64,000 nt of DNA from Rhyzopertha dominica (taxonomy: Eukaryota; Arthropoda; Insecta; Coleoptera; Bostrichidae): the NCBI GenBank assembly GCA_025024175.1, contig QCXZ01000045.1, positions 3,288,649 to 3,352,648 on the forward strand. The letters are read 5' to 3'. A model generated the notes under the pieces. That model saw only the letters and a list, made by a program, of their open reading frames with translations. It searched no databases and had not been told where the DNA came from. Shown here in pieces: positions 8,846 through 60,165 of the stretch; the first letter of the stretch is position 1, and every line of letters begins with the position of its first letter. The translations under genes were made by a program, and so were the position numbers.

Positions 8846-8886
8846 ACACTACTGCGAACGTAGAGGGTTGAATATCCCACTTCTGA

Positions 8887-11502: not shown

Positions 11503-11983
11503 GTATCGAAGACAAGTTTGGGAACGCAATCGCGACTGTAAAAGTGGACCTGGAGAAAGAAAACCCACGGAACATTTTTTGCCTGTGACTGGAAGCAGCA
11601 AAGGTAATCCACTGCTGTATGCTGTATGGTGGTCAGACTTCATTCGAGTCGTATGAAATGCCGTTCGAAGCGACTGGTGTGACGAACAACTGGGACGACT
11701 GAAAGAAGGCGATAGATTGGGTGCATGCTCATCGTGGACCAGATCTTGACTTGCTTCACATGCTACCTGTAGCCGACAGGACCTGGCCAAGCAAAAAGTC
11801 GGCGGAACTCTGTGAGACACTGAAACAAACGTAATAAACTATGCAAGACGTATGACTTCCAACTGCTGTGGGAAACCAGAACATGTGAAGAACTGCAGAA
11901 TGGTGCTTCAGTCTGCCTCCAGACATCACGGGCAACGGTATGATTGCAACAAAATACAAAATCATCCAGGAAGGCACCATTCG

Positions 11984-12960: not shown

Positions 12961-13059
12961 GCAGACAGCAGCGCGATCGGGTGCAATAGTGGAACAGGGT
13001 GATAGACATTTGACAAAAGTGGGACGACATTTGCAAGGCAATAATAAACTGCATGTTTC

Positions 13060-22338: not shown

Positions 22339-22355
22339 ACTTCTATTCATTCATT

Positions 22356-22618
22356 AATGATAGCGAAATAGTACTATCTGCAGTTGGTTGAGGTGTAGAC
22401 AGCACAGCATAGACATGCATTTTAATGTATGTTGGTTCTTGCCCGTCAGCAAAAAGTGCCGTGGGGGCCTGCTGTCAAATTGAAGTATGCAGTTGCATGC
22501 CAATTTGTCAGGCTACAAGGTCACTTCCTTTAGGAAGTAGTTCCCGTTAAGGCAGCTAGGTGGCTTTGTCATCATGTCAGTGTAATGCTGACAGATGCCA
22601 TTGCCACCCTAAATTCTT
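22356..22618 (+). mobile_element. Hammerhead retrozyme insertion, copy 2 (5'-truncated, no inversion)
   Basis: Bounded by TTCTATTCATTCATT on both sides (22341-22355 and 22621-22635; up to 17 bp if the shared AC is counted). The insert starts inside ribozyme stem II (AATGATAGCGAAATAG) and runs in direct orientation to CCCTAAATTCTTAC. It keeps only the 3' half of the hammerhead (GAAA, stem III, cleavage site, TGCAGTT), so it cannot self-cleave alone. A variable 5' start with a constant 3' end is typical of target-primed reverse transcription. Confidence 0.9.
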
Positions 22619-22635
22619 ACTTCTATTCATTCATT

Positions 22636-24780: not shown

Positions 24781-25364
24781 TATATGTACTTGTGCCCCCA
24801 ATAAGGGGGTGAATCATCTAGCGGGTGCTAGTAGACTAACCTCCTAATGGTGCAATTTGTCTGCAATTTGGCCGCTGGACCTCTTTGAGGATATCCCAGC
24901 AAAACAAAATTTGAGCAAAAACAAATTTCTTGTCTGTGTCTGTGGTTTTGTTTGTGGACACGATAACTTTCGAAAGACTTAATATATAAAGTTGAAATTT
25001 GGCAAACGTATAAATCTCAACTACCCAAAGCGACCTATTGTTTGTGGGGTATGTAGGGTATAAAGAAGGGCGCGAAATTAGGAGGTAACTACCCTTTTTG
25101 CAAATTTTTTTTTCCGTTTTAGTATGTGATTAGTAGTATAACTGCGAGTATTATTCGTTCTTATAAATTTTCGGTGTAGCAAACTGTTTAGAAGATATTA
25201 GCAAAAAAGCGTCACTTAAAGAAAACGGTTTTTCCCAAATATCTCCGAATATATTTAATATATTCAAAAAATGAAAATACCATCAGGTAGGAAATAAAAT
25301 TTCTCACAAAAAGTGTCTTGGAAAATTTATCCAAAATTTTGACATTTTCGAAATAAAATGCATG

Positions 25365-25448
25365 TCTATGCTGTGCTGCCTGCACCTCAACCAACTGCAA
25401 ATAAATCTATTTCGCTGTCATTACAGCTCGTCGGTACAGTTTAGGTCT
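25365..25448 (-). ncRNA. Hammerhead ribozyme, degenerate
   Basis: In the inverted 5' part of copy 3. The core reads CCGACGA instead of CTGATGA, the base expected to be the cleavage-site C is T, and the outer stem I strand is lost at the inversion junction. Stem II (GCTGT-AATG-ACAGC) and GAAA survive. Predicted inactive. Confidence 0.8.
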
Positions 25449-25471
25449 AGTGGTATATAGGCAAAACCGGT

Positions 25472-25577
25472 TCTATGCCGTGCTGTCTGCACTAGACCTA
25501 AACTGCACTGATAAGCTGTAATGAATGCGAAATAGACCTATCTGCAGTTGGTTGAAATGCAGACAGCACAGCATAGA
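25472..25577 (+). ncRNA. Hammerhead ribozyme, mutated
   Basis: Lower stem I AACTGCA/TGCAGTT and stem III ATAG-AC-CTAT are intact. The core reads CTGATAA (the catalytic G replaced by A), and the stem II 3' strand is AATGC instead of ACAGC. Loss of this G is expected to abolish cleavage. Confidence 0.85.
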
Positions 25578-25822
25578 AATGCATTTTAATGTATGTCGGT
25601 TCTTGCCCGCTAGCAAAAAGTACTGTGGGGGCCTGGTGTCAAATTGAAATATGCAGTTGCATACCAATTTGTCAGGTTACAGGTCACTTCCTTTAGGAAG
25701 TAGTAACCGTTAAGGCAGCTAGGTGGCTTTGTCATCATGTCAGTGTAATGCTGACAGATGGCATTGCCGTCTAAATTCTTACTTACATCATACCACTGCT
25801 TTGATATATAGGCAAAACCAGT

Positions 25823-25928
25823 TCTATGCCGTGCTGTCTGCACTAGACCTAAACTGCACTGATGAGCTGTAATGACAGTGAAATAGATCTATCTGCAGTT
25901 GGTTGAGGTGCAGACAGCACAGCACAGA
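25823..25928 (+). ncRNA. Type I hammerhead ribozyme, complete
   Basis: CTGATGA (25859-25865), stem II GCTGT-AATG-ACAGT closed by a G-U pair, GAAA, stem III ATAG-AT-CTAT, cleavage-site C at 25893, and TGCAGTT pairing with AACTGCA. The outer helix is TGTCTGCAC/GTGCAGACA, against TGTCTACAC/GTGTAGACA in the 57196 copy: an A-U pair replaced by G-C. This compensatory change supports the structure. Confidence 0.9.
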
Positions 25929-26431
25929 CATGCATTTTAAAATTTTAATGTATGTCGGTTCTTGCCCGCTAGCAAAAAGTACCGTGGGGGCCTGGTGTCA
26001 AATTGAAATATGCAGTTGCATGCCAATTTGTCAGGCTACAGGTCACTTCCTTTAGGAAGTAGTACCAGTTAAGGCAGCTACGTGGCTTTGCATCATGTCA
26101 GTATAATGCTGACAAATGGCATTGCCATCTAAATTCTTATTTTCGAAATATTTCCAAAAAACCTATTTTGGACCCTGCTCGTACGATTTTTAAAAAAATT
26201 TGGGTATTATATAAAAATTAAATTTCTGATCAGAAAGCATTCTTGTTTTTTTAAGTTAATAATTTTTGAGTTATTTGGAAGTATTTTGTTAATATCACGA
26301 GGACTGTCTTAGAAAAAATGTTTAGAGAGAAAAATGCTCAAAACCTGATTACTAATCGTATAGTATATAAGAAATAAAAACGTAAATGTCATTTTGACAA
26401 TTGGATGTATTGATTCAATTTGCAGAGGTTT

Positions 26432-27420
26432 TTATTTTATTGTTGCCCAACCTAAGGTATTTGCTCCAATTGGAAGGTATTTAGTTTTTTCTGTATTTAC
26501 TGTGATATCCCATTTAGCATATTCCTCAGTTATTTTTCGCATCATGTCATCTTTGTTATTTACAATTATGGTCTGATCATGGGCAAACTCTAGGGGTCTA
26601 AGTTGTATAAACATGTGTCACTTAGTTCCCATTCAGTGTCATTTTCGTTTCCAAAGATGTAAGGCTTGAGCTAGATAAATTTTTAATAGCGTTCGAGAGA
26701 TACAACATTCTATGTCCTTTAGTGAGACACCGTTGATGGCTTTTATATGTGATTTTGCTTCGTTGTTAAGATTCTGTACAGCTTTTGTCGGCTCTAAGTT
26801 AATTCTGGATTCGTGCAAAACTTCCCATAACTTTAACATAAGATCGATTAATGGTATATAAAAACTTTCTAGTTCATTGTCGATTTCGTCCCAATAATCT
26901 GTTTTAATGAAAATACATTATCTAATGTCCATAATCTTCCGCCTCTGAAACCATTCTGTGTATCTTCTTTGTAACTGGTGTATTACTCTTCAATTAGGTT
27001 TCTTAAATATACTTCAATACATTCTACTCATAAAGCTGGTGACAGAAATTCCCCGGGTTATTGAGCTCCCAATTTGTGGAAGAGATATACGCCTGCTTCC
27101 ATTGTTCAGGCACCTTTGTTATCATTCTGAACAGTTTTTCGCTTCCAGATTAAATGAGTTCCGCACATATTTCTTCTGGACCACATGCTCTTCTATTCTG
27201 TAAATAAATTATAGCGGTTTTAATTTTACTCGTGTCAACGTAAATTTCCTCTCCTTCAATATTTATCTCGGTCTGTAGGCGTTCTGATGGGTATACTGCT
27301 GTCTATCTTTTGACAGTAAGTTGGAATAGTGTTTCACCCATCTTTTGTGAGTTAATTACACATTGTGAAATAATTTTAACATCATTGATCGTACGTGCTT
27401 TCTTGTTTTAGTGTGGCATA
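26432..27420 (-). pseudogene. LINE reverse-transcriptase core, decayed
   Basis: Reading leftwards on the - strand, the sequence gives QNGFRGGR, TLDNVFSLKQII (about 26990-26900), then after degraded sequence FAHDQTIIV (catalytic FADD changed to FAHD) and ITEEYAKWDITVNTEKTKYLPIG (26590-26450). These are palm motifs of a non-LTR reverse transcriptase, with many stops and a mutated active site. Its C-terminal continuation is at 24780-24474. Confidence 0.65.
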
Positions 27421-35269: not shown

Positions 35270-36170
35270 TATAGCTCTTTAAATACCAAGAGACAAAATA
35301 AACGAAATTTTAAATTTGTTTAATAGTTATCACCCAAAATTACAATTTACCATAGAGACAGAAAAGAAAAACACAATTAACTATCTAGACCTTACACTAA
35401 TTAAAAAAGATAACAAAATTCTCACAAAATGGTATTCAAAACCAACTGCATCGGGAAGACTACTAAATTACAATTCTAACCACCCCTACAGACAAAAAAT
35501 AGCTGTCCTAAACAACACCATACAACGAATAATAAAATTAACTAGTCCAGAACTTAGAATTGAAACTTTACATGCCACTGCTAAAATACTAAAAAATAAC
35601 AACTACCCCACTAAATTAATAAGTAACTCAATAAAACAACAAACAGAAAAACTATACAATAGTATTCAATACGAAAAACAAGAAAAAAACACAAACATGA
35701 CATACTTAACCTTACCATATATACCACCACTCACTCAAAAAATAAAAAACCTACTAAAACCACATAACTTCCAAATTACATATAAACCAATTAACACAAT
35801 TAAACAATTCTACACACCGTTAAAAACAAAAATACCAAAAGAAACAAGAATACACACAATATACAGTATAAAATGTAAAGAATGTAACAAGCAATATATA
35901 GGACAGGCAGGACAATACTTAAAAAACAGACTACAACAACATAAAAATGATAACAACTACACANCTTTAAAAAAACATCAAGAACAAACTGACCACACTT
36001 TTGACTTTGATAATACCAAAATTATTACTACGGAATAACATAAACAAAAAATACAATTTTTAGAAATGATACATATTCAAAAAAACTAAACACATATGTA
36101 AACGACAGGACTGACACACAAGGACTAAGTAATACCTACTATACCGTCATTTAAACACACCCTCTCACCG
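35270..36170 (+). pseudogene. PLE remnant: linker and GIY-YIG endonuclease, best preserved
   Basis: A 240-residue open block starts after PRDKINEILN. It contains FNSYHPKLQFTIE, NYLDLTLI, SNHPYRQK, a long helical linker, then the GIY-YIG region with KCKECNKQYIGQAGQYLKNRLQQHKND and DHTFDFDNTKI (one N at 35964). A stop truncates the tail near 36038, and decayed tail sequence continues to about 36170. The reverse-transcriptase catalytic part is absent, so it is 5'-truncated, as usual after incomplete reverse transcription. A hammerhead-like tail motif follows at 36295. The nuclease normally nicks the target for the element's own insertion. Confidence 0.85.
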
Positions 36171-36294: not shown

Positions 36295-36327
36295 TCGACA
36301 AAGACCTAAATTATAGGTCGAAACGTC
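36295..36327 (+). ncRNA. PLE-type hammerhead, core decayed
   Basis: AAGACCTAAATTATAGGTC forms a perfect 5-bp stem II, followed by GAAACGTC, the very short stem III and cleavage site typical of PLE hammerheads. The upstream core reads TCGACAA where CTGATGA is expected, the differences being transitions. It lies about 260 bp after the PLE frame, as expected for a PLE terminal repeat. Inactive as it stands. Confidence 0.6.
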
Positions 36328-36786
36328 ATATTATTAGAAAAAAGTGTCTTTAATTTATAAAAATAAGGAGCCAGAACCTACAAATAAATACAATAAGAAA
36401 AATTAACACAAAAGGACTCCACAAAATAAACATCAAAATCTCTATAGAGCACGATAGTATCAAGTCATGATTGAAGATTGAAGATTGAAAAGGAATCAAT
36501 ATTTTGTTGTCATTAATATAACGAAAAACTTGAGCTGTTGATAGAATAGGCAAAATGCTAAGAAGTCTAAAATTATTATTTTATTTATTACTATAGTTTC
36601 CTACATTATGGCAATTTTTAGAACTATTGAAATATAGATATCCGTTTAAAGAAACATAAATATGCAACAAAACTGCAGCAGATAAATAGACATGAAAAAA
36701 AATGTACCTGAGGAAAAATATTATATTATAAATAAAATAGTAAGCGAATTCATAGAAATTGTATGATATCCTAGTAACTGCATGTT

Positions 36787-36910
36787 GTTTTCCGGGCTGG
36801 TTCCCACGTTGGTTGCTGAAACTGTTTCGGAGCTACTTCTCAGGAAGACACCGTCATGAGTGTCGAAACGTCAAGGTCAAATAACCAACGTGGGAATAAG
36901 CCCGGAAAAC
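36787..36910 (+). ncRNA. Hammerhead-like motif enclosed by a 28-bp inverted repeat
   Basis: GTTTTCCGGGCT...CCCACGTTGGTT (36787-36814) pairs with 36883-36910, with two mismatches. Between them are GACAC (36847-36851) and GTGTC (36860-36864) as stem II, then GAAA and CGTC (36865-36872). CTT before the core can pair with AAG after the cleavage site. The CTGATGA box is replaced by CTCAGGA, so cleavage is doubtful. The whole has the layout of a type I hammerhead with a long stem I, plausibly a lone PLE terminal repeat. Confidence 0.55.
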
Positions 36911-43343: not shown

Positions 43344-43445
43344 ATGAAGGCGACGGCAGCAGTAATTTTGTGTGTTAGTGCCCTGGTTGGTCAGGCGATA
43401 TCTTCCTCCATACCTATGTGGGAATACCTCACCAAAGACGAAAAG
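43344..43445 (+). CDS. Reg-5: Exon 1 (coding part) of the Reg-5-like gene
   Basis: Starts at ATG 43344 after GTCGAG, encodes 34 residues including the signal peptide, and ends with AAG before the strong donor GTAAGT (phase 0). The upstream in-frame region lies in the 5' leader after the TATA box. Confidence 0.85.
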
Positions 43446-46400
43446 GTAAGTTGTCGAAGTATTTTCGTTTCATCGTGAGATTTTTGAAAGAAAAAAAGAC
43501 GCCGTTCCTAGTAGAACGTTTTGCTATTCTATTCTAGTTTACAAATACTTGTCATTTATATTTGCAAAAGTAGATAGTTACGAAGTTTTTGTGTCCAACT
43601 CACTTCGTCAGCTTTTGTAGTTTCCTTGTAAAAATATTTACGCTACAAAAGTAATTAAAAAATATAAATACGATTTAGATAATTTAGTTTTACAAGACGC
43701 TGAATACTAGAAATAGAACTGCATGAAAATAACTTCCACTAAATCAATATTCCAAATGTATCCATTCAAAAAATGCAAACAGCTGCTAAAAGAATATTAT
43801 AGCATAAGTACACATTTTATAAATTCCTCATATCAAACATTATAAAATGCAAACACGCTAGTTTAAAATATCCCAAGCTACATAACATATACAAAAAATA
43901 TTCCATAATCTCATTAAAAAGCATGTGCTCTGAATGAAATAATAAAATAAATTTTTGATGATGACTTAAGAATATTATACAGCAATTTATTGCAAAGGGC
44001 ACGCGCCTTATAAGACGGCAAACATCATCAACTCGACAATATGCAATGTGGTTTTGATAGAGACTCTGCTACAGTACTCTGCTGCTAGAGAAAATGTTGC
44101 ATGCGGAACTGAGTCTAAAAAAAGAGACGATGCATGTTGGGTCCCAAGTTCCAAAAATGCTAACGGCGCTGCGGAGAAACATTAGCGATCGTTAGTCGAG
44201 ATCTCGATGAATATAAGCGAGAACGAATCAGGAAGAACTTAATTTTCGAAATTAAATATAATGATCTATTTGATAAAAAGCTTTATAAAAATTAATATAC
44301 AAGGTGTCTTATTCTGTGACTGTAGGTGTCTACAAAATCATTTATTTGTTGATAAAACCTAAATTATATCTAATTTAATAAAAGATAGTGATAAAAATGA
44401 CCCAGGAATCAAAGATTTATTGAGAAAACAAAAAATGTTCATTGGCAATAACATAATCTCCTACAAATTACGCCCCATACGTTGATTGACTGTCGACAGT
44501 TTCACTAAAATTGAGATTTTGGGGACAGTATTAATGGAGATGCGTCTGTTGACAGAACAATTTTTATGGGACGTTTTCATCACTGAACAGAACGTAATTG
44601 AAAAAGTGCGGCTTCCTTCTAATTGCATTAATAGTCCATTCACAAAATTGCATTCTTAGGACATAGTCTTCTTCGGGCAGTTCTTGTAGGAGTTGTATGT
44701 GGTATTATGGGTGCCATTTATTGTTATTCGTAATTCTCCAAAAACTAAATTATGTTGGGCCTTTTTTATGCCCTAACGAATGACGAAAACCGCATATCGC
44801 TATCTTTATTCATCATTTTTTAGTATGGTGAGAACGACAAATTAAAAAAAAAACATCAGGCGGCCTAACTATAGGAAATATTTCATCATTTCCACAGAGA
44901 ATTCGAAAATGCAATTGGGAACTGGGACGCCCAATATAAATGAAAATATTTTTAGGTTATAGAGCTTTAAAAATAAGATAGAGTTTGAATTTTTTCCTAA
45001 AACATTGAAAAATGTCGCACTGAGACACAAATTTTATGTTGAAATATTATAAGGAACTGTGTCGGTTTGAATTGTTTCTCTTAGGTATACATATATATGC
45101 CAAAATAATGGATGATATTGCTAGTAGCCTTATTCCAATTGCATAAGACATTGCAGTTTTAGAATTTTAGTTTAGTGAGGACATCAAAAATCTTTTGTTT
45201 GTTCGTAGCGCTTTATATCAGATGGAAATAAATGTGAAAAGTGTTTCAAGTCTAATACATATGAATGAAAATTTTTAAAAGAAACGACGCAATAAAAATT
45301 TAAGAACGGAAACGCTACGATTATTTTCGGCTGACTATATCAAAGCACATTATACGAATTCTTTTTTCATATTCCAAGCAAGTTTGATGATTTCGTGGTC
45401 ATTCAGTGAATCTCCTCGTGTAAACTGCGTGGTTTAAATTTAACTCGACTTTTGGCGAAAGCAAACATCAGGACTAACAACCGAAACGCCCGTTTCACAC
45501 CCATTACCGTGCAAATTCGCGCTTGCCCATGCGAAAAGAAGAATGCACACGCAGATGCCTGCGAAAGTAGGCTAACAGTTTTCGTCCGTCGTTGACCGTC
45601 AAGTCTTTTTCCCTTCACTTGAAAAACGACGTTGTTCTTCTTTCGTGGGTTGTAAATGTCATGCTGGGCAATGAATTTTTCCTCTGGACGACTTTCTCGC
45701 GTCGGCGTAACAAAATAGAAATGCTAATGGCTCTGGACTGGTTGAGAACGACGACATGGTTATTAGATTTGGAAACGTGTGGAACTTTCGATTTTCAAGT
45801 ACGGTTAGTTGCAGCTATATGATAAAACAGGTCACTAACAAGTAAAGCAGAATCCATACAAAACCCCAATTTTTTGCAATTAATTAAAGACTTGAGGCTC
45901 CAGTACGTTACATCTTACAAGGTGTATTGACAAAAAGTTAGTTTGGAGTATAACATGATTTATCTGCTTTCTCGATTTACCTCACGGTAAAAAGCTGCAA
46001 AATGTGGCAAAAAGTCGATCAATAATAAAGTGTTTAATGAAGCATATGTGGTCTGTCATATCTCGGTAACCTCCCTCATATTAATGACAGAGTCCTGTTG
46101 CCATAACAATGCATTTTGACTTTTCAGAAGTGTTATTAAAAAGTTTCACATCAAAAGGTTATATTTATATTTTTATGAACAAATTTAATTATTGAGCTAC
46201 CATAAAGTATCTGCACCTAAAAGGGTTATGATGTATATGGTCAATACGTTTCATGATGCTGGCCCATTTTCATGCCATCGTCTTGGATTGCTTCTCTTTT
46301 AAAAGGAAATTTTTCATTCAAGACGATTAGAAGCCTGGGAGAGCTATTTCTATGTCAACCCCAGAAAACAGCGATGCAGTCCATTACATGATATTATTAT

Positions 46401-49400
46401 CAATTCGACAAATTGGGCTAAAACATAGCTGAGAGACTGGACATTTCATATGAACGAGTTCATCACGCTGTGCATGTTGATTTGCGTATAAAAAAAATTC
46501 TGCGAAACTGATTCCAAAAATAGTTAATGAAATTGAAGCACTCTGACTCTCCAAGACCACAAAACTTTCGGGTCCATCGGCTGAAAAAGTTCTTGCTTCA
46601 GTTTCTTTTTTTTTTGGGATTGTCATATTCATTGACCATCGGGAAAANGAAAAAAACAACAAAAAGAGATCATTATTCACAATGCAAAAGACGCGGAATT
46701 GGCACCAAATGCGTCTTGTTCTTGCAGGACAATAATGCACCTGTACCAAGTCGCACACTGCAATAAACAAAATTATCGATTTGAGGTTAGAACCAGTAGA
46801 TCGTCCTCCATATTCATCTTACACCTATTTCCCAAATGAAAAAAATTGAAAAGGTTTTTCCCAACGAAGAATTTATGGAGAAGAAGAAGAAATTTTTTAC
46901 TTAAGGGTTGGACTATGTTGAGTAATAAAAAAAGTTTTTTTTTTAATTAAAGCCTTTTTGTATTAGGCTGACGACTTATCAGTACCCCCTCGTATGTAGC
47001 GTGCTGAACACTATACGTGAGCAGTTTATCGTTTAGATATGTGAGCCAGAAAATTGTGGAAGATAGGATCACTTTGTAAAATAAATAATCTTAAATAACT
47101 TACTTTAAACTTTAGCAGGACTAGAACTAAGAATATTATAGTCGAAAATATAAACATTGCAGTCACCGACAATTTTATCCAAGCTCTTAACAGCAGGAAT
47201 TAATTGAAAATGCATTTTCTATAGGAAATACTTTAGAAATGTATTTCGTACGCTCTCTGTTCTCACAATGTTAATGCTATATGTAGAATATGTAAGTTAC
47301 TAAGACAAAAAAATTGTCAGTAAAACTGATTTTTCAGCACTTATTTTGATACAAAACTATCTATGACCAAACATTTTTCCGACAGATAAGCATTACTTTA
47401 CGTACAGGTATTTATGTACATATGTGCAAGTTTTTTAATAGATATGTGGTGATGTCGAATGTGTTCACGTTAAATTGATTTACGTTCTTCAATTCAGTTT
47501 GTAGCACCTCTGTACTTGTCAACTCTACGTAACTGATAAATTGTTACACAAAAAATTAGCGCCTGTATGTGTATTCTGCAAAGCAAGCGGCACTGTTTTA
47601 AGTTTTGATTGTTTGTAACTTTCTGTTTGCCCCACTTTTGCCAGATTCACCATTTAAATTTATAAAAACCGTCCTATACTCCAAATAACAGTACCATTCA
47701 AACTTAACACCTGATGTTAGAAAAAAAACATAAACTGCAAAGGTATTTTGAAGTGCATACCCATCTATGCATTTTATGTTTTTTTATCAGACTTATGTTT
47801 AATTATTGTCAGAAAATATTTGCAATTGTGACATACATTATTTAATTGATAAGCAGGCAATGGATCTGAAAAATATTTGTATTAACTTGGATCGGGAATC
47901 GAACACGAGACCTCTGTGTTAACACCGGAGTGTGCATTAACTGCATTACTAAAGCCTTGGTTTGATTCACATATAACGACATCGCCATTTGTAAACCTGC
48001 TGAATCGCTCGTCGCTCAGTATTTGCAAACTATAAAAACGATTTTTTTTTCTTGTAGATGGGGTATCTCTATTCGATGTTCAAGAATCAAGTAGATGAAT
48101 TCTGTGAGTTCTCGGAAATGGACAACTGCAAAGACGAGCTGACTAGATACGGACTAAAGAGACTGAGGGAAATGGACGAAAACAGCTTGGACGAAATGGA
48201 TCCCTACCAAAGAGGAGCCAATTCAATAAGTAAGTTACCTCGAGGAGATTTGCAATATCGTACTTTCCGCAATTAAAATGTGTTACTGTACGTTATCCAT
48301 GGAATTGATATGTGGTAAATATTAGGTATTCAGGCAGTTTCACACAAGAGCACTAACATATAAGAATATTCTTATCTTAATAATTACAATCAAATATTTC
48401 TGATAACTCTTAGCCAACTTTGTCAGCGTAATTATTGTAAATGAAGTTTCGGCAGGTGAATTTTATAATTTACAGAATTATACAGCATAGGTAGCAACAG
48501 ACATTTCGTAGCTTATCACCTTGTTTACGCTATATCAAGTGTTTACATTAATTGATTTGTTAACTTTATAAAACGTGGTTCTATTAGTGTGTTTCGCAAT
48601 TATTCAGATGAAACTATAAATCTAAAGAGATCCTTATTTATGAATTCTTTATTCTCAGTGTTATTGAAAAAGTCTTCAACTCTTATATTAAAAACTAATA
48701 ATAACATAAGAGATTAGAAAGTCTAGCAGATGGTTTTTAAGCAAATGATAGAAATCTGTCCTTGTAAGTATTGTCTACAAATATGACTAGCTAAATGAAC
48801 GCTAATCCACGAAAGGTCAAAAATTTGCCTAATAATGCATATAGGCTTTCACCGCACAAAGGATTTGTTCAAATCCCAAACGAACATGTTAGTCATTGCT
48901 GCGTGAAAGTTATTTTCTACTCGGTAAATTACGTGACCAAATTTGTGAATCAGACAGGGTCATTGTTTGGTAATAGTATGAAGGCCATATTTGGCTCATA
49001 ACAGAATGATATAAAACGTTTCTTCTGAGTAGTTTATCCGATTTAGATAATAACCTCACAAATTCTTCTAATCTTGCATTATTTCTGGCAATAGTCTAAG
49101 GCGTTTGCGTATATCTTTAAATCTGATTTGGCAGAAATAAGAACGTGGTAATACAGGGTCCAACATTTAACACAAACTTTGATTCGTCAGGATTATTTGC
49201 GTCCAGCAGACCATCATTTATTCGCTATGGGGATCGTTTTTGTCAATTCCTGGATGATTCTAATCTATATAGTTGAGATTTTTCAGCTTTGGGAATTTTA
49301 CTACTGAGGTTGCCTAATTTCGAGTTCACAGGCTAACTTCTTAGTATAAAATATTAGAGTTTTCTTAAACAGCCAATAAATAGTACATTAAGAACCTCTT

Positions 49401-52400
49401 CGCTGAGTGCACCCAATTGATGAATACCTGTTTTTCTTGGAAGTCCGTTTTTTCCAGAACTGTTTCTACAAAGATAGGAATATAGAAGTCATAAGAAAAA
49501 ACATAGAAAGTAGCTTGAACAAGAGAGAGATATATCTGGTTGAAGTCAAACTTAATAGTCCCTTATTTGTCAGTAGAGCAAAGCTATCAGATATTAAAAC
49601 AAATGGGCAGGAAAAAAACGTGTTTGAAATGCCACATAGANAAGATAATAAAGAAAATAATAGGGGTTTTGGGGAGNAATATTTACAATGTTTATGTGCA
49701 CCCGCACCTTGCTTACTTGAACTCGATATGGCAGGTNGCCCAAGAATGCACATTACGACNGCACAAACACTGCAAAATAAAGNTATTAAGATAATTCACA
49801 ACTTAAAATACTGTATCTCCATAAAGTAACTATACGATTCTCAACGGATCGGACTGTTGGATAGGTCTGGGTTTAATATTATATATTACATTATATTTGC
49901 TAACAATAAACAGTTACCACAAGGTTATGTGATATTATCTTTAGATGTTGCGAATTTGTTTGGAAATATTTCATTTGAATTGATAAATACTGTAATTAAA
50001 GCAAAATGGAATTGAATTAGTGAACAGTGTACAGGAAAACCTAAAAATGTTTTTTTAGGAATAATTAATTTTGTTTTAAATAATAACTTTTTCAGTTATA
50101 AGGGTAATTATTTTATTCAAACTTTCGGTTGTGCAATGGGTTCAAAATTAAGTCCAGTTATATCGCAATGCATAATGGATTATCTTACCTAAATTAACAT
50201 ACAAATCTGATGTTATAGAGAAATTTGTAGATGATATTATACTTTCTATTCCTGAAAATAGAGACGTAGAAATTTTAGAGGTTGTTAATAATTTTAATGA
50301 AAATATCAAATTTAGAATCGAAAACGAAAGAAATTTCTCGGTTCCATTTTTAGACACTCTAGTTATAAGAAAAAAAATCAAAATTTAATAAAGTTGGATT
50401 GGTACAGAAAATAAGCATCTGGTAGATATATTAATTATCACTCATTATAAAATGTCGATTTATCAAAGACATGAAACGTAGGATTGAAAGAATATGTCAT
50501 GAGGATTATATGAATAAAAATTTGGAAGTACTTGAAAATTTCTTAATACAAAATTCTTATCCTAAATCAGTGATTCGTAAAATACTATATAATCAAGATT
50601 CAGGGGCATTTATTAACACTATTTCAATAAATCAAAATAATACGGACAGTACACAAAATTTAATGCATTATGCAAGTTTACCTTATTATTCAAATTAAAC
50701 TGACAATATAATTAAATTTTTTAAAGGTGAAAACATTAAAGTTGCTAAAAAACAGTAAAAAGTATTTAGTAAATTAAAAGACTTCACAATATTTTAAAAA
50801 TCGTGTTTCATTACATAAAATTGACATTAAGTGTAACAAGCAGAGATGTGCATTTACCAGCCATTTTGATAATATAAAAATTTTAGATAAATAACAAAAT
50901 TTATTTAAAGCTCTTTTCTGGAAATGGTATGCATCTATGAAAAACAAAATTTCAAAGTTTAAGTGTAATTTATTCATATTTATTTTCATATACCCCACAT
51001 AAAGGTCCTTTGGTTAAATAAATTAATCGTACAAATAAAAATATCAGTTTGTTTGTGAATAAATTTATACTTTGTCAACTTTCAATTTCATGTCATATTC
51101 AAAAATTAATGTTCTAGTTGTGTAATCTTTTTAGACTCTGTAGGTATTGTTACTAGTTTTATATTTATATGCATGTTGCAGTATGTAACAGAATAAATCA
51201 GTCGAAAGCTTAAAAATATTGAGCAATCATTAAAATCGATAAATCGTAATAAACTCAAGAAATATTATATTATATATTTCCTGCACAGCAAGTGAACAGG
51301 CAGGACTCTTGTTTTTGTTACTACATAAAATTTTCTCAACACGTTTAGGACAGAAACGACCCAAATGCAGATCAGTGCCATCGATAAAGAAAACCTCGCG
51401 GAGGTTTCAAGTTGTTCATAAAATATTCCCGCCGAAGCAATCTCCAATTACTATTATGTGGCTTTTCCCTCGTTTTAAGACACTACGTATTAATTACAGT
51501 CTTCAAGGCCAGCCCAGCAGATCAAATATAATGACACAATGTCGAAACTAAAATTATATATTTGGAGTCGATTCGCTACCGATCAAAATGGTCATGTGCG
51601 CGCAACAAAACCGACAATTTTAGAAAACCTTGCGCAACGCCACATCCTTCTTCTCGATCTTCATTCGTTACTTGGAAAAATGCGTCGAGCGTGCCTCATT
51701 AAAACACATGAGCGTCTAATTTCATACATGGCCTGCGCCGCCTACTGCGGATCGTGAGAAAACAATTGCTAATCTAGACGACCATCGCAAACCAGGATTT
51801 TCTATTGCGATGTCCATGTTCGCGGTCGCCTTAAAAAGGACCGACCTTGTGAGAGTGCCTCCGTGGATGTAAGGTCACAGGGGTTAAGGAACATTTTTAC
51901 TTTCTGTTTCGCCTTCGTTGTACACATTTCGCTTTCATGATCTGAATGGGGGCGATGGTGAAAACGCCTGGTTGAAAGTGAAAATCGTGCTCGCGAAATA
52001 ACCAGAAGACTCTAAGCGAAGAAGAAATACATACCCGACTGGCCTAGCATTTAAAACCAACAAAATTTTATTTATTGAACCACATTTTGTTTAAAACATT
52101 TATTATAGGGTTATCAAATATAATTTTTTTAATTAATTTTTTTTCAGTAGGTGTTTTAACGAACATTGGGCTAATGGTGGTAATAAATAGGGCGGCTGAA
52201 TTCATAATCGATTTCATCAATTTTTTACAGTCGTATACACAGTATCACCTTTAGGTCAATTGATATTAAAAATTTTGAAGAATGCATGTCTATGCTGTGC
52301 TGTCTACACCTCAACCAACTGCAGATAGTACTATTTCGCTGTCATTACAGCTCATCAGTGCAGTTTAGGTCTAGTGTAGACAACACGGCATAGAACTGGT

Positions 52401-55400
52401 TCTGCAGTTGGTTGAGGTGTAGACAGCACAGCATAGACATGCATTTTAATGTATGTTGGTTCTTGCCCGTCAGCAAAAAGTGCCGTGGGGGCCTGCTGTC
52501 AAATTGAAGTATGCAGTTGCATGCCAATTTGTCAGGCTACAGGTCACTTCCTTTAGGAAGTAGTTCCTGTTAAGGCAGCTAGGTGGCTTTGTCATCATGT
52601 CAGTGTAATGCTGACAGATGGCATTGCCATCCTAAATTCTCAATTTTGAAGAATGTTTCTAATTAAACTTGTGTCGGATATAGCTCTCTGTGTAGTAAAA
52701 TTGTTTTGCATTATACGGGGGCTTTACCAAACCTTTTTTAATGCAACATTGTATATTTTTGAACAAAAACACATGCGGTGTCATTTTGAACCGTTTCGGC
52801 CTTATTTGAAGTTTGTTCAAAATATGACGTTAGCAAAGCACCGGAGAAAGCAAAATATGTCTAAAAATGAGAAAGGAAGATAGCGCATAAAAAGATCTTC
52901 AGTTCTCGGATTAAACGTTTTCGGTTCCCTGGAACAGTTTTCTAATAAAAAACGAAAAAATAGACGAGTACGAAAGTTATTTTAAGAAGCGATTTTAAAT
53001 CTATTATAGTATCAAGCAACGATCTATGAGACTGACTTATGCAGAGGGTTTTACAGCTTGATGGTCGGCCGTCGTAAACTAATGTAGTGTAAATGAGGGT
53101 TTTTACAATCTTATGGTCGGCCGTCCTAAACTACTGGAATTAGTGACACGCTTCAAAGTTCCTAAATCGGCCGTATTCAAAAAATCTTGTTGACTAAAAT
53201 TTTAACTTTTCCACTATAAATTTTTGAAATTTGTTAGTTGTGATAATTTAGCAATCAATAAAACATAGAAGCTTTTCTAACAAATTTTATTTAATGCAGA
53301 CCTAATGCTAACTGGCGCGACCCGTGATCTATTTTTATTTGATACTTAATTGTGTTTAAATTTTCCGATGTATAAAATAAAAGCCTTTGCATGTCATAAC
53401 GAATTTATACTTATTTAATATAAAAAACATACAAATTAGTAAGTAGAAAATTATTTACATTTGTTAGAAAAAATTTACAATAGTGCACAATATCGATTAT
53501 GTTCATTACAGCTTGTTAATAAGCACATTACAAGAGTCCCTAACTAAAAAAAAATTAGTCACTATCACTTTCACTGATAAAATCACGATTAACTTCTATT
53601 ATTAATTCTTATACATGATTCGCTCTGTACCGATTTTCAATGTCCAGTACATGCCGCACTGAATTTCTCTATGCATCGACACTTGTTATTTCAGCTTCGT
53701 GTCTAATTTTTAGCAGCATTTCATTGCTAAATTTTCCACCGGTGTTCACTCGTCGAATTCTTTGTTTCAACTGCCCACATATCGTTTCAATGGGGTTATA
53801 AATGCAATGATATGGGAGTAATCGTATAATGGTGTGTCCACATTCAGAAGCGAGAATGTCAATTTTAAATTTCTTCGAACATTTTTTTGTGCCAAGCACT
53901 TCCAACAATTGTTTTTTTAGTGTAGTCCTCTTCGAAATATAAAGCCTTATTAGTTGTTGTATTTGGAATTTTACCCAGTTGCTCCAAATGGTAACTAGCG
54001 TTGTCCATTACTATAACGCTGTTTGGTGGCAATTTGAGTAATAAAATGTTTTTGAACCAATTTTCATATCAGAATGATAATCGGCGCTTGCTTCTTTTAA
54101 GTTTTTACATCCAAGATACAAGATAAATTAGGAAAGAATACGATTTAGTCATACATTAAAAGCTATTAGATGAGAAATATTTGTAGTTCAAATAATGCTC
54201 ATTGATTTATGTGTACGGAAAAAAATTCTAAAAAGCCTAAACACAATATTTGGACACGGTACACTCCGCTGCAAAACAGTGGAACGTGCCGAACCCGTCT
54301 GTTATTTACGACAGCTTCAGGTAATACTTGTAAACCATTGTGAGCGGTAATCGACTGTTCGTATAATGAGTCTCCTGGATCGTTGCTTGAAAACCTCTAG
54401 TTCCTGAGAAAAAAAGCAAAGTTCTGTTCATTCTGAATAGATACATTTACTACGTAAGTGACTACGGTGTTTAAAATTTCTGAATTTTAAAATGTTGGTG
54501 CAAGTCAAATTGGTCTAAATTAAGCTATTGTTTTATTTTACTGTTGAACTGAGAGTATAATACTCGATGTTGGCACACAAATCTTAATATTTCGTGAGAT
54601 TATACGAGTAAAGTCGCAGATTTATAGTTAAAAATTAACTTGTTTGAATTATACCTAATTATATGGGGCTTGTACGGCGATACAAACACTGTAATAATTT
54701 TGAACAAATATTGTTCAGTTTTGGTGTTTTTTTTTATTTGCTGACATATTTTTAGTTTAAAGTAAATGTAGGTAAAGTAGGTACATATATTCACGAACTG
54801 CCTTCCTCTAAGTCGCAAATCGAACCTCGTATAATAAATCTTATTAATAAGTATAGCAAACCAGAAGCACGTTTAAGCGACAAAATATATATAATACCCA
54901 GTGTTTTAAAAATGTCTAACGCNGGAACCTGTCAGCCGATGAGCNGAATTACGAGTTACAGGAAACCAGTTGGCGAATACACTATTATGTAACTACCTTC
55001 GTCTACGATTACGTTAATAATTTGAATATTACAAATGTGGGCTCCAATCACTAAATACTGCGTGAAATATTTTTAATTTTTTGGAACNGTTTTGTTACGC
55101 GATAAAATTATAAAATAATTACAAATTNTGATGGTGTTGGTTGTTAGCTAAAAGGATATCATCGCTTTGACCCTTAAGGAAGGCACAGCTGATTAGTAAT
55201 TTTACCAACAGAGGTGGTTTGATAATATGAAATTGAAGTCAAAAAGGCATGATTTTCTAGAACTTATTTTTTGAAGTGTATATCTGTAATTATTACAGGA
55301 CTTCCAAATATTTATTTCCTAGAAATTCTGTGTTTTAAACTTAGCCGACATGATTTTAACTTCTTGATGTCATCTTTACGATCTTTCGATGTTGTAAACC

Positions 55401-58400
55401 ATTCGTTTCTTGTTGCAAAACTCGATAAATTAGGGTTACATGATGACTTATTGAAATTATTTACCCATCTTTCAACTAATCGTTGTAGCTTAACACAAGG
55501 GTCTAATCTAAGTCCTAGTTGTTGAGGATTTACACGAATGATGTGCTGTCACAGCCCGCGTGTAGTCTTTTTAATATATAACAACAATGCCCTGAAAGCC
55601 AACATAAACAAATGCGAAGTTGTAACATTTTCTTGCTTATCATATTTATATATATTTTTTCAATCTCTTCTGCTGCACTTTGTGGGGAGGGGTGTCTTCT
55701 GGCATTAACGAACAAACGGCCTTTGTCAGAACTGAATAAGTTATAATTGACCTAATAACGCTAACGTGTCATGTGTAATTACCTCGATGTCTATTGCTGA
55801 TAAATGTTAGTCGCGATACCAACCTCTATCAACAATGTATCCTACTCCTTTCGGCCTTGCGGTGGCATACAATTAAATATGAAATTACCGATTTTGCGGA
55901 CAAGGCAACCATCCATCAACGAGTATTCCCAACAATAAATTCTATTTAAATGTCGGTTGTCGCACTTCAGCTACCGACGATGTATTTAAAAGTATAATTT
56001 GGAAGTTCCGGCGCGAACTTTTGTATTTTTTGGGAAGTGGGGCGTGACTGTGTTGAAATTTAGAATTATGGCTTTCCAGCTTTTGATTTATTTGAGGACG
56101 AAATTTGCTATCCTGTTGAACAGGATCGCCTTGAGTTTTGCAGGCAGTTGGAAATCCAGTTTTGTTTTAAGGTCGTTTCGAGCAAAAACTGCCGCATCCT
56201 GGATTTTTGTTTTCGTTTTTTTTTTGTGCATAATGGGATGATTCAATCTCTTCCGATAACGACAGTATAAAACTCAGGTTCAAAGTTTCTGCTGTTATTT
56301 TCTGGCTAGTATGTGTATTAAGATTGTTACTCTACCGCCTCCACTGTTTAAATGTATTTAAAAAGTAGGTACCTAAGCATCATGTTGTGTCTCTCTACTA
56401 GTCTATACTTTGTAAAAGTCGCAAATAAATGAACTAACTGGCACTGTTACTGCTAATAAGTGATCCAACGCCATGTGATAAGATAACCTATAGTCCATTA
56501 TAGCACATGATGCGAACTTACTACTGCAGAAAATTTTGTAAATTTTGCAAAATGATACTACTTTAGTAGTACTTAAATTATAATAATAAACAACTTTATG
56601 AGCTCCAGTTTAAGTATAACTCAGCGTTTTACAATCATAGCTCTTCATATTCGTCTTAAAATTAAAGAAAAAATGAACTTTTCTTTTGAACATGTGGTCA
56701 CAGTGGTCGAATTTCTAACTTCTACTGACAAAGTATTGTTTAACCATATTCCATCACAAAATATTTTTCGTTGATATATATTTATGTGTGTAAGCTCAAC
56801 ATTAAGCAGTATAGTTTATGCCTAATATTATGAGAGATTGTACGTTTAGCTATTTTAACGTTTCTAACATATTTTTAATAAATATATATCTATTAGGTTT
56901 TATAGCATGCATCGCCTTATTTCTCGGTTTTTCACAGTAATAAAGTGGGATAGCACAATTGCATTATACACTTTTATAAGTGTCTGGTTTCCTAAATTAT
57001 AACTCAGTCTTCCAGTCACACCGACTTTCTGAAAAATCTTTTTTTTGCTAAATAATCTGCATTTTTTCTGAACTGTAGTTTGTTATACATAACCACACCT
57101 AAATATTTAATATTACAGACATTTCAACTACCTCACTCTGTCTATGTAAAGCCTGTATATTTTAGTGTTTGTTTACATTGATTACTATTGCCTTGAAAGT
57201 AAGAATTTAGGATGGCAATGCCATCTGTCAGTATTACACTGACATGATGACAAAGCCACCTAGCTGCCTTAACGGGAACTACTTCCTAAAGGAAGTGACC
57301 TGTAGCCTGACAAATTGGCATGCAACTGCATACTTCAATTTGACAGCAGGCCCCACGGCACTTTTTGCTGACGAGCAAGAACCAACATACATTAAAATGC
57401 ATGTCTATACTGTGCTGTCTACACCTCAACCAACTGCAGATAGTACTATTTCGCTGTCATTACAGCTCATCAGTGCAGTTTAGGTCTAGTGTAGACAACA
57501 CGGCATAGAACTGGTTTTGCTTATATACCAAAGCAATGGTATGATGAAAGTAAGAATTTAGGATGGCAATGCCATCTGTCAGTATTACACTGACATGATG
57601 ACAAAGCCACCTAGCTGCCTTAACGGGTCACTTCCTTTAGGAAGTAGTTCCCGTTAAGGCAGCTAGGTGGCTTTGTCATCATGTCAGTGTAATACTGACA
57701 GATGGCATTGCCATCCTAAATTCTTACTTTCATCATACCATTGCTTTGGTATATAAGCAAAACCAGTTCTATGCCGTGTTGTCTACACTAGACCTAAACT
57801 GCACTGATGAGCTGTAATGACAGCGAAATAGTACTATCTGCAGTTGGTTGAGGTGTAGACAGCACAGTATAGACATGCATTTTAATGTATGTTGGTTCTT
57901 GCTCGTCAGCAAAAAGTGCCGTGGGGCCTGCTGTCAAATTGAAGTATGCAGTTGCATGCCAATTTGTCAGGCTACAGGTCACTTCCTTTAGGAAGTAGTT
58001 CCCGTTAAGGCAGCTAGGTGGCTTTGTCATCATGTCAGTGTAATACTGACAGATGGCATTGCCATCCTAAATTCTTACTTTCATCATACCATTGCTTTGG
58101 TATATAAGCAAAACCAGTTCTATGCCGTGTTGTCTACACTAGACCTAAACTGCACTGATGAGCTGTAATGACAGCGAAATAGTACTATCTGCAGTTGGTT
58201 GAGGTGTAGACAGCACAGTATAGACATGCATTTTAATGTATGTTGGTTCTTGCTCGTCAGCAAAAAGTGCCGTGGGGCCTGCTGTCAAATTGAAGTATGC
58301 AGTTGCATGCCAATTTGTCAGGCTACAGGTCACTTCCTTTAGGAAGTAGTTCCCGTTAAGGCAGCTAGGTGGCTTTGTCATCATGTCAGTGTAATACTGA

Positions 58401-60165
58401 CAGATGGCATTGCCATCCTAAATTCTTACTTTCATCATACCATTGCTTTGGTATATAAGCAAAACCAGTTCTATGCCGTGTTGTCTACACTAGACCTAAA
58501 CTGCACTGATGAGCTGTAATGACAGCGAAATAGTACTATCTGCAGTTGGTTGAGGTGTAGACAACACAGTATAGACATGCATTTTACTATTGCCTTGGTT
58601 TAACTTGCATTTATGTCTATTGCAATTAGACAGTGCAGTTGATTATATAATTATTTATGAAGTGTTTTAATCGAGACATCTGCAACTTTTATATTTCTAA
58701 ATATTTTGGAAAATTTTTTAGAATGTGCTGAGTATACACAATATTTATTCAAATATTTATTGCAATTGAACATATACACTTATTTTTCAGTGCAGTTGAC
58801 ATAGACTTAATAGATACCCCAATGCACTCTATGGTTTGTTATTCCTATACTTAGGTCAATTAATTTGATAGCATCATCTATGATTAGTTGCCTCTAATGT
58901 TTTTCAAAAATTGAGTTCAGAAACTGTATTCTTTAAATGACCATTCAAGAGGAAGTATAATGGTATCAAGTCCATCTATTCAGGAGCTGCCATTTAAAAA
59001 CTCTGGCTCTTGGATAAAACATAATATGGAGGCACTCCATATTGTTAACATTTTAACTCATACATGTAATAGTCGTCATTTTCTATTATTTATATAAATG
59101 TTAATTCAACGTAATTTTGTAACAATTTCAAATACATTTTTACAGTTAGATTGCCAGACAGGAAAAATCCAACAATATGAACGCAAAAAATAACTGCCCT
59201 GATTCTAAACACTCTTCACTAATTTCGTCATGATCATCTTATGGGTTTAGAATAGAATATCAGTTAAAGAAATAAGTTTTGACAAATACAATTGTCAATT
59301 TTGTAGATATTTCGCAGTTAACACCAAAAATTATGTTAAAATAAGGGTTCTACTGGTAAACACTATTTATTAAAAAAACACAAAGACTAATGGACAATAA
59401 TATGAGCTGAACAATTAGCTTAAATCTTCTAGCCACTTTAGTAGGAAAAACCAATTAAGAATTTAAAAACCGCATCTGATACGGAAGTCTCAAACAAACT
59501 TTTATAAAGTTACAAATTTGGTGAATTGATAGGTTCATTACAATATTCCCTAACAGCTGACAGTTATTTTCAATCCACAATATCTGTACAGTAACACACA
59601 ACTTATTTTGCAACCACATAATTCCATCATGTACGTTGAACTCACATTAATCATGTTCTTTTCTTTTGCAGTATGGAACTCCATGACTGAGGGCCATGAA
59701 ATGATGAAAACCAGCCCTCCGAAACAACAAAGAAGTACAACAACCTCCAAACCGAACAACATCGACGATGAAAGCTTCAGTGACAACACATTTGGTTCTC
59801 TAGGGGAAGCTTCCGCCAAAATCGATAATGTCTATCGTGTTCCTCCACCTAAAGACTTTGTGTACCCCAACTCAATCCAAGAGAGGCCCCTCGAGAGTTA
59901 CCAGACTGGAAATGCACTGTACGTCTACCCAAAAAATTCAATTTCAAACGAAAAGAGAACTACTACTTTTGTGAGGATGCCATCCACGACTTTGACACCT
60001 CCACCTCTTCCAATAAGAAGACAGCAAGAATTCCAAGAAGGACCACTTATTGTTAGGGTTTACCCCGATGGCAGACCCGTTAAAGACCCTGAACAAAACC
60101 TCGTGCCACAAGACGAAGACTTGAGGCAGTACATGTTGGCTAAAGTTAAACTTCCAGAGTATTAG
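43344..60165 (+). CDS. Reg-5: Secreted protein resembling rhythmically expressed gene 5 protein (Reg-5), three coding exons
   Basis: Joining 43344-43445, 48058-48229 and 59672-60165 gives 255 residues with no phase conflict. Residues 1-18 or so form a signal peptide (KATAAVILCVSALVG). The mature N-terminus SSIPMWEYLTKDEK continues into a helical domain with two cysteines (FCEFSEMDNCKDEL) and DPYQRGAN. A Thr/Pro/Gln-rich linker follows, then a C-terminal region with VRVYPDGRPV and DEDLRQYMLAKV. From memory of the family, IPMWE..L...EKM, DPYQRGA and the PDG motif match insect Reg-5, a clock-cycling secreted protein of unknown biochemical function. Introns of 4.6 and 11.4 kb are full of transposons. 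No frame damage is seen. The splice assembly is firm; the family name is less so. Confidence 0.8.
44440..44760 (-). pseudogene. Mariner/Tc1-like transposase remnant, catalytic region
   Basis: The - strand gives YHIQLLQELPEEDYVLRMQFCEW, then NYVLFSDEN with the second catalytic aspartate, and a sequence near SQSTYGA where QSVNVWAG-type text is usual. This is the middle of a DDE transposase whose N-terminal helix-turn-helix type matches the scrap at 23326-23595. Stops and frameshifts are present. It lies antisense in intron 1. Confidence 0.6.
46500..46920 (+). pseudogene. Mariner-type transposase remnant, C-terminal half
   Basis: Across frame changes: SPRPQNFRVHR (46545-46580), a block resembling VLASVFFxxD, LFLQDNNAPVP (46718-46750, the DNAP/H region), then DRPPYSSY (46798-46820), in place of the mariner HPPYSPDL motif, and the final FFT-rich tail. 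It has an N and several stops. A dead mariner copy in intron 1, different from the fragment at 44440. Confidence 0.65.
48058..48229 (+). CDS. Reg-5: Exon 2 of the Reg-5-like gene
   Basis: Preceded by a T-rich tract and TTGTAG, ends before GTAAGT. Its 172 nt give 57 residues plus one base (phase 1), which combines with TA of exon 3 to encode Ile. It carries the two-cysteine helical domain and DPYQRGAN. Confidence 0.88.
49407..49829 (+). pseudogene. LINE reverse-transcriptase C-terminal fragment
   Basis: In shifting frames the sequence gives VYVHPHLAYLNSIWQ and TLQNKXIKIIHNLKY, the post-polymerase region of Jockey/CR1-type LINEs. It includes several N bases (49641, 49677, 49737, 49760, 49782). 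The upstream part is degraded. Not functional. Confidence 0.5.
49880..50990 (+). pseudogene. PLE remnant: reverse-transcriptase core and linker
   Basis: Across stops: VILSLDVANLFGNI (about 49925), GCAMGSKLSPVISQCIMDYL (about 50130-50185), KFVDDIILSIPEN (50220-50265, catalytic aspartates kept), FRIENERNFSVPFLDTL, then the linker FLIQNSYPKSVIRKIL (50540-50590). The GIY-YIG region is only faintly visible after 50760. The linker is closely similar to the remnant at 986-1680, so the two likely belong to one family and together span most of the protein. Multiple frame breaks make it inactive. A weak GTCGAAAGCTT near 51200 may be its hammerhead tail. Confidence 0.75.
51290..51900. other. CpG-rich intronic block of unknown origin
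   Basis: 51540-51870 is noticeably richer in G+C and CpG than its surroundings, and two + strand frames of 72-80 codons cross it without resemblance to a family I know. It may be a conserved regulatory block or an unrecognised element. Confidence 0.3.
52285..52641 (+). mobile_element. Hammerhead retrozyme insertion, copy 4
   Basis: A 357-bp insert between 14-bp duplications AATTTTGAAGAATG (52271-52284 and 52642-52655). The first part (to about 52401) is inverted and carries a complete - strand ribozyme. The second part is direct and starts at CTGCAGTTGG next to the ribozyme cleavage site. The two form a 40-bp perfect inverted repeat around a loop of about 100 bp. The insert ends CCTAAATTCTC. 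Confidence 0.92.
52289..52394 (-). ncRNA. Type I hammerhead ribozyme, complete
   Basis: - strand: CTGATGA (complement of 52352-52358), stem II GCTGT-AATG-ACAGC, GAAA, stem III ATAG-TA-CTAT, cleavage-site C at 52324, and stem I AACTGCA/TGCAGTT with outer helix TGTCTACAC/GTGTAGACA. The next direct segment begins immediately past the cleavage-site sequence of a second monomer. Confidence 0.9.
53046..53145 (+). repeat. Two tandem units of about 54 bp with GGTCGGCCGTC
   Basis: GGGTTTTACAGCTTGATGG and GGGTTTTTACAATCTTATGG each lead into GGTCGGCCGTC and TAAACTA. A third, shorter TCGGCCGT appears at about 53166. The units lie about 500 bp from the transposase fragment at 53669 and could be terminal repeats of that element; this is not proven. 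Confidence 0.6.
53669..54065 (-). pseudogene. DDE transposase remnant (IS630/Tc1-type endonuclease domain)
   Basis: The - strand encodes PPNSVIVMDNASYHLEQLG (about 54035-53980), with the second catalytic aspartate in VMDNASYH. Over a frame change it continues IIRLLPYHCIYNPIETICGQLK (53840-53770), where the third acidic residue is the E of NPIE. A frameshift near 53910 separates the two parts, and the first catalytic aspartate is not visible. It belongs to the DDE_3-type group found in many insect DNA transposons. Antisense in intron 2. Confidence 0.65.
55371..55640 (+). pseudogene. LINE reverse-transcriptase scrap with internal deletion
   Basis: SLRSFDVVNHSFLVAKLDKLG (55375-55440) corresponds to the DxxxAFDxVxH palm motif of Jockey-like LINEs and is followed by TQGSNLSPSC (the PQGSxLSP motif). 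A stop follows, and then FLIYNNNALKANINKCEVVTF (about 55565-55630), i.e. the sequence jumps past the YADD motif. A heavily deleted copy. Confidence 0.55.
57404..57509 (-). ncRNA. Type I hammerhead ribozyme, complete (antisense to the next three)
   Basis: Mirror copy of the ribozyme at 57768-57873. All core elements are present on the - strand, with cleavage-site C opposite G57439. Confidence 0.93.
57768..57873 (+). ncRNA. Type I hammerhead ribozyme, complete
   Basis: AACTGCA (57797-57803) pairs with TGCAGTT (57839-57845) as lower stem I. CTGATGA is 57804-57810, stem II GCTGT/ACAGC encloses AATG, GAAA is 57825-57828, stem III is ATAG-TA-CTAT, and the cleavage-site C is 57838 (an AUC triplet). 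An internal loop (TAGACCTA against GGTTGAG) leads to an outer helix of up to 21 bp with one mismatch (57768-57788 with 57853-57873). Every base required for catalysis is present. The loops of stems I and II are where tertiary contacts form in known type I hammerheads. Confidence 0.95.
58119..58224 (+). ncRNA. Type I hammerhead ribozyme, complete
   Basis: Identical in arrangement to the ribozyme 351 bp upstream; cleavage-site C at 58189. Cleavage here and at 57838 would release a 351-nt monomer with 5'-OH and 2',3'-cyclic phosphate ends, suitable for RtcB-type ligation into a circle. Confidence 0.95.
58470..58575 (+). ncRNA. Type I hammerhead ribozyme, complete
   Basis: Third direct ribozyme, cleavage-site C at 58540, just before the end of the insert. 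The outer helix contains one change (ACAAC in place of ACAGC). Confidence 0.93.
59672..60165 (+). CDS. Reg-5: Exon 3 (last coding exon) of the Reg-5-like gene
   Basis: Acceptor TTCTTTTGCAG, then 494 nt to a TAG stop at 60163-60165. It encodes WNSMTEGHEMM, the Thr/Pro-rich linker, YRVPPPKDFVYP, a QEFQEGPLIVRVYPDGRPV block and the C-terminal YMLAKVKLPEY. Confidence 0.9.

Follow-up and report, generated by a model that had tools for sequence, protein, structure and literature searches.

The window analysed here is a 64,000-nucleotide stretch of the genome of the beetle Rhyzopertha dominica (contig QCXZ01000045.1, positions 3,288,649 to 3,352,648), and all coordinates refer to it unless another contig is named. 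A gene on its forward strand was located by tblastn with beetle Reg-5 proteins, with exon 1 at 43362-43451, exon 2 at 48058-48228 and the last exon at 59671-60162. The named relatives of the last exon are beetle proteins, and several of them are called rhythmically expressed gene 5. The last intron contains two retrozyme insertions, i.e. the focal insertion of this study (E, 57196-58583) and locus D at 52281-52646. An earlier note on this DNA had placed E in a host intron, and the forward-strand Reg-5 exons on either side of it, 48058-48228 and 59671-60162, bear this out.

Other mobile elements are found in the window as well. An LTR retrotransposon at 3422-9327 has 442-bp repeats (3422-3863 and 8886-9327) that are 99.8% identical, with a 1380-aa gag-pol-like ORF on the reverse strand between them, and a 36-bp unit is repeated about 10 times inside the element at 4249-4615. 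A broken LINE at 12324-15378 retains RVT_1 pieces and an Exo_endo_phos_2-like piece, the latter below the cut-off. The C-terminal piece of a Penelope-like element (PLE) with a GIY-YIG domain, a candidate type of mobiliser for the retrozyme, lies at 35283-36035 on the forward strand. The sequence GTCGAAACGTCA occurs twice downstream of the PLE ORF (36317-36328 and 36862-36873) and resembles the small hammerhead of PLEs in its 3' half.

The focal insertion is 1388 bp long and is flanked by 14-bp target duplications TTACTATTGCCTTG at 57182-57195 and 58584-58597, neither of which is assigned a strand. Its monomers have a period of 351 bp, a GC content of 42% and intact type I hammerhead parts. The earlier note had reported these coordinates, the period, the hammerhead parts, a cleavable C at 57838 and the duplications, and all of them were found in the sequence. 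It had also described a tandem array. The 351-bp hammerhead units are indeed there, but the array is not a plain tandem since its left 432 bp are inverted and it has two fixed outer ends. The left arm (57196-57627, reverse strand, 432 bp) starts at monomer position ~243-245, counting from the hammerhead cleavage site as in all monomer positions given here. The right arm (57626-58583, forward strand) ends at monomer position ~43-46 after about 2.7 laps. The two arms have GG at 57626-57627 in common at their junction, and the inverted arm shows exact complementarity of 434 bp to 57650-58083. The monomer copies differ from each other at a single position, 58564.

Hammerhead cores lie at 57804, 58155 and 58506 on the forward strand and at 57473 on the reverse strand, the last one being absent from the earlier note. 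The three forward hammerheads span 57797-57845, 58148-58196 and 58499-58547, with cleavage after 57838, 58189 and 58540, respectively, and the reverse one, within the left arm, spans 57432-57480. The list of open reading frames has none of 100 aa or more within 57196-58583, so the insertion is non-coding, and no LTR pair was seen at E in the repeat comparison of the window. E is recent and retrozyme-like, with type I hammerheads, and belongs to a kind of insertion already described for metazoans. The identity proposed in the earlier note thus holds as far as a type I hammerhead retrozyme-like element in a host intron is concerned, and has to be amended in that the element is head-to-head and is one of many insertions.

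No Rfam family matches anywhere in the window at gathering scores. The closest one for the hammerheads of E is Hammerhead_HH9 (RF02275) with 28 bits and an E-value of 2e-4, its gathering score of 52 not being reached. A match to mir-2013 over the junction of E (38 bits versus 70) was rejected, as it follows the palindrome created by the inversion.

The core CTGATGA and GAAA are kept in 156 of the 165 hammerhead spans of the family. Stem III is the palindrome ATAGTACTAT, and at least 21 of the 165 spans have the variant ATAGATCTAT, which is again palindromic; the change from GTAC to GATC in these spans keeps the self-complementarity. We regard the kept palindrome as a hint of selection for a double hammerhead, though the change may go back to a single inherited event. 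In the predicted fold of the forward transcript of E, hammerhead 1 is buried in a hairpin with the inverted arm, while hammerheads 2 and 3 pair as a double hammerhead through the stem III palindrome. Such a double hammerhead would free at most one monomer, 58190-58540, according to this prediction. Amphibian retrozymes are reported to be more active as dimers in the accessible text of PMC7229834. The earlier note had suggested that transcription of the Reg-5 gene through E releases 351-nt monomers. This appears doubtful because the predicted fold buries hammerhead 1 and pairs hammerheads 2 and 3 with each other.

The window holds five loci of the retrozyme family, E and four more found with the monomer as a query, and each has its own target duplication of 12-17 bp. 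Locus A is two-armed (11216-11502, reverse strand) with 13-bp duplications at 11207-11219 and 11503-11515. Locus B (22355-22622, forward strand) is one-armed and ends at monomer position 242; its duplication measures 13-17 bp, with 17 bp exact at 22339-22355 and 22619-22635. Locus C is two-armed (25354-26144, reverse strand) with 12-bp duplications at 25344-25355 and 26139-26150. Locus D, in the same Reg-5 intron as E, is also two-armed (reverse strand) with 14-bp duplications at 52271-52284 and 52642-52655. Two paralogous repeats, 2604-3368 and 9688-10331, are empty counterparts of the locus C site. They belong to a repeat family with three copies in the window, the third being 24931-26439, and this family is the source of the empty sites for locus C.

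We searched the 479-Mb genome (138 contigs) with two monomer queries and obtained 2073 and 2746 first-look candidates, of which 40 were scored in each search. Judging from these relatives, the retrozyme pattern of E is not due to chance, because there are four more family insertions in the window and 2073 and 2746 candidates in the genome. The best 40 of each search were grouped into 78 loci outside the window. Our sample consists of 63 loci, i.e. 58 of these 78, comprising all 39 from the first search and 19 of the 39 from the second, plus the five window loci. One further locus (L035) was found in 136 kb of flanking sequence.

Forty-four of the 63 loci are two-armed and head-to-head with the sense strand outward, and none of the 63 is tail-to-tail. 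The outer ends of 40 of the 44 two-armed loci are one at ~47 and one at ~242, counting one arm start within 40-56 and the other within 234-262, and the same site is found at both ends in none of the 44. Were the site at each end picked independently and with even odds, all 40 of 40 pairs would be mixed with a probability of 2^-40. The exceptions are L048, which is broken by later DNA yet reaches position 48 beyond it, L074, which is cut by the edge of the fetched sequence, and L077 and L088, each of which has one end at neither site. The 19 one-armed loci end at ~47 in nine cases, at ~242 in nine and at 218 in one (L050). The share of two-armed loci is 25 of the unselected 39 from the first search and 15 of the 19 from the second, where the picking of loci may have raised it. 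We considered Pol III termination at the TTTT of positions 43-46 as the cause of the ~47 end, and dropped it because the arms read through TTTT and a T run of this sort is missing at the second end. The head-to-head layout with two fixed outer ends is the rule of this family.

Exact target duplications of 10-17 bp, most commonly 13 bp, are present at 42 of the 63 loci (36 of the 44 two-armed and six of the 19 one-armed). The other 21 loci, 13 of the 19 one-armed among them, have no duplication of 9 bp or more, with none at all at 15 and 6-8 bp at six. When flanks were mispaired as a control, a duplication of at least 9 bp appeared in one of 620 pairs. Head-to-head repeats are difficult to assemble, and one could ask whether a DNA-level rearrangement, the inversion of a satellite or an assembly error created the layout. 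Against this stand the five different target duplications of the five window loci, the empty sites of locus C and the duplications at 42 of the 63 loci, and we find such an origin barely credible.

The 72 nicks of 36 two-armed loci follow the motif N^(G/T/A)TT, alike on both strands; 58 of the 72 have T at +2, and 57 have T at +3. Given the same motif on two strands together with the duplications, both cuts look to be of one kind, placed about 13 bp apart, and would leave 3' overhangs able to prime.

The inner ends of the arms inform about the template. They are evenly spread round the circle (107 ends, KS p 0.39), the longest arm reaches 2365 nt or 6.7 laps, and three of the 107 ends fall near the cleavage site versus 3.35 expected, i.e. 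there is no excess. For this lack of an excess at the cleavage site we dropped a cleaved linear monomer as the template. With spread inner ends and arms of several laps, a circle or an uncut multimer fits as the template, and the two are not told apart. The junctions show microhomology: the median overlap between arms is 3 bp in the 39 two-armed loci that consist of two plain segments, compared with 1 bp in 400 mock junctions (p 4e-5).

From E alone, it was attractive to think that priming took place at one end only and that the first cDNA then folded back and primed itself to give the inverted arm, since a hairpin is found at the junction of E (monomer positions 143 and 136). An explanation of this type has been given for rotifer PLEs, some copies of which are inverted or carry a tail at one of their ends, features attributed to self-priming in the accessible part of PMC3846280. 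The other loci made us drop it. Fold-back predicts adjacent inner ends and an arbitrary outer end, whereas we found spread inner ends and a fixed outer end; moreover the hairpin of the E cDNA is no stronger than those of shuffled sequences (z -0.78). We thus consider fold-back very improbable and keep priming at both ends as our reading.

The two start sites differ in the predicted circle folds (n=47). The unpaired probability is 0.97-1.0 at positions 43-46, which are followed by paired positions 47-48, and averages 0.80 over positions 236-246. The site at ~43-48 would thus be the edge of a hairpin loop, partly open, and the one at ~238-246 an open stretch.

The arms of one insertion agree in their alleles in 53 of 53 comparisons in one subfamily (3 variable positions) and in 41 of 45 in the other (7 variable positions), or 94 of 98 overall. 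The agreement between loci is 67% and 65%, and in each subfamily none of 2000 permutations reached the within-insertion value. The distances between arms gave medians of 1.7% within and 3.7% between insertions and so point weakly in the same direction, but an arm had its partner from the same insertion as its strictly closest relative in just 8 of 41 cases. This test is not clear, partly owing to alignments over-extended at junctions; the shared-variant test came later. Because the arms of one insertion share alleles, priming on both strands probably used a single RNA or sister RNAs. Shared alleles mean like sequence and do not prove a single molecule, and each strand may have been primed on an RNA molecule of its own, both molecules stemming from one source locus or burst; abundant retrozyme circles are reported in the accessible text of PMC7229834. 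Still, the rule of one end at each site is most easily obtained with one RNA offering two sites to one enzyme pair, so we rate separate molecules as a possible but less likely course and proceed with the same or sister RNAs.

The PLEs of this genome were compared with the retrozyme. The window PLE protein gave 151 genome matches among 150 scored candidates, and seven listed copies have open frames of more than 800 aa. Among the 150 matches listed, neighbours within 6 kb of each other are arranged -/+ (C-terminus outward) in 24 pairs and +/+ in five, with no +/- and no -/- pairs; one of the five +/+ pairs, on contig C41, has overlapping members that are probably fragments of one copy. Both ends could be read at two PLE insertions, one from each of two families. 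By eye, each of the two has one short end and one end with a tail of about 40 nt, duplications of 11-12 and 13-14 bp, and ^GTT at one of its two nicks. The retrozyme monomer has no 10-mer in common with the 3' regions of the two PLEs, a point against its mobilisation by a PLE-type enzyme. PLEs of the second family, about 55% identical to the window PLE, occur on contig C53 near 5903651-5911767 and 24360569-24364217 as tandems with 826-aa frames about 2.93 kb apart, an arrangement that suggests a circular or multimeric template for the PLE RNA as well.

The same two-ended insertion could instead have been made by the machinery of a LINE through twin priming, which has reportedly been described for L1. 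LINEs are present in the window and the genome, and LINE insertion is also compatible with duplications of 10-17 bp and with joins by microhomology. Twin priming, however, uses varying internal sites, whereas the second-strand site of the retrozyme is fixed at ~242 in 40 of 44 loci, and the nicks are alike on both strands. In addition, PLE neighbours are head-to-head, while the 150 matches of a LINE query included one close pair, on the same strand, and no inverted one, a weak control since most of these matches were distant. LINE machinery is therefore an unlikely agent in our view, and a PLE-type enzyme remains our preferred one.

The properties of a PLE protein from a lizard are in line with this preference. 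According to the accessible text of PMC11167929, the purified protein has a preference for AT-rich DNA with ATT, where it cleaves each of the two strands and extends it, and uses two internal start sites, the tail being the stretch between them. PLEs have also been put forward as a strong candidate mobiliser of retrozymes, on account of their co-occurrence and common type I hammerheads (PMC7229834, as far as its accessible text goes).

We think it likely that E is a metazoan retrozyme of the non-autonomous, presumably circle-forming type, and that PLE-type target-primed reverse transcription from both target strands copied its RNA circle. In such a process a multimeric RNA would cut itself at the hammerheads and be closed to a 351-nt circle, as suggested by the family. 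An endonuclease would make two like nicks at N^(G/T/A)TT about 13 bp apart and leave 3' overhangs, as the duplications and the motif indicate. One overhang would then prime at ~43-48 and the other at ~238-246; the pattern of the two sites is observed and the enzyme is putative. Extension of each primer would then proceed along the circle over less than one lap or as many as 6.7, as the observed arm lengths have it. The two cDNAs, of one sense and on opposite strands, would be joined mid-insert by microhomology, which accords with the structure of the insertions, the order of events being our suggestion. The end product would be the head-to-head array between duplicated target DNA that is seen at these loci.

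The sequences themselves display the insertion structure, the rule of the two sites, the duplications, the motif at the nicks, the alleles common to both arms, the microhomology and the parallels with PLEs, while circle formation, the dimer, simultaneous priming and the PLE as the enzyme are elements that we infer. We lean slightly towards the more specific proposal that a PLE-type dimer copies one circle with both halves simultaneously, each half having its own fixed loop and target strand, so that a complete insertion would be head-to-head with an end of either type. If true, this would be the normal insertion route of PLEs, their inverted repeats and their tails on one side would be explained without self-priming, and PLEs would be the drivers of the animal retrozymes. 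The retrozyme insertions hence bear on two questions, i.e. the mover of the animal retrozymes and the origin of the inverted copies and tails of PLEs. The two are linked because a hammerhead circle and two PLE copies of one genome have a like head-to-head layout, a single start site at each end and a like target. The rule predicts starts at about 43-48 and 238-246, the nick motif and overhangs of ~13 nt. Studies of target-primed insertion would also gain a small template in such a circle, with priming at two defined loops. Hammerhead retrozymes of animals, insects included, are known, and a two-ended insertion of a retrozyme was not found described in the literature searched, which did not cover preprints and most subscription papers; the two-ended insertion rule is apparently new in this sense.

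The family resembles the metazoan retrozymes of PMC7229834, whose accessible text names insects among the hosts of such repeats, in its type I hammerhead, tandem monomers (about 170-400 nt there), low GC, absence of LTRs and duplications of over 4 bp. In that text they are described as tandem repeats, without a head-to-head layout or a fixed pair of start sites. The hammerhead repeats of newt and axolotl are similar in having monomers of about 330-350 bp and a short palindromic stem III; the same text describes no insertion anatomy for them, and in our family the palindrome varies from GTAC to GATC. Plant LTR retrozymes are likewise hammerhead-bearing, non-autonomous and associated with RNA circles, but differ in their type III hammerhead, LTR features and 4-bp duplications (PMC7229834 and PMC7761336, accessible portions).

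PLEs with a GIY-YIG endonuclease share with the retrozyme the head-to-head copies, the AT-rich target and the duplications (accessible parts of PMC3846280 and PMC11167929). The duplications are 8-10 bp in rotifer PLEs, as given in the available portion of PMC3846280, and 11-14 bp in the two PLE copies of this genome. PLEs encode their enzyme whereas the retrozyme lacks any ORF reaching 100 aa. The retrozyme has one start site per strand, while the available text on the lizard PLE (PMC11167929) indicates that its start sites do not differ by strand, which speaks against the PLE reading. The two sites are about 40 nt apart in PLEs and ~195 or 156 nt apart on the retrozyme circle. The retrozyme nicks at N^(G/T/A)TT resemble, at the level of the motif, the preference of the lizard PLE for ATT (accessible text of PMC11167929).
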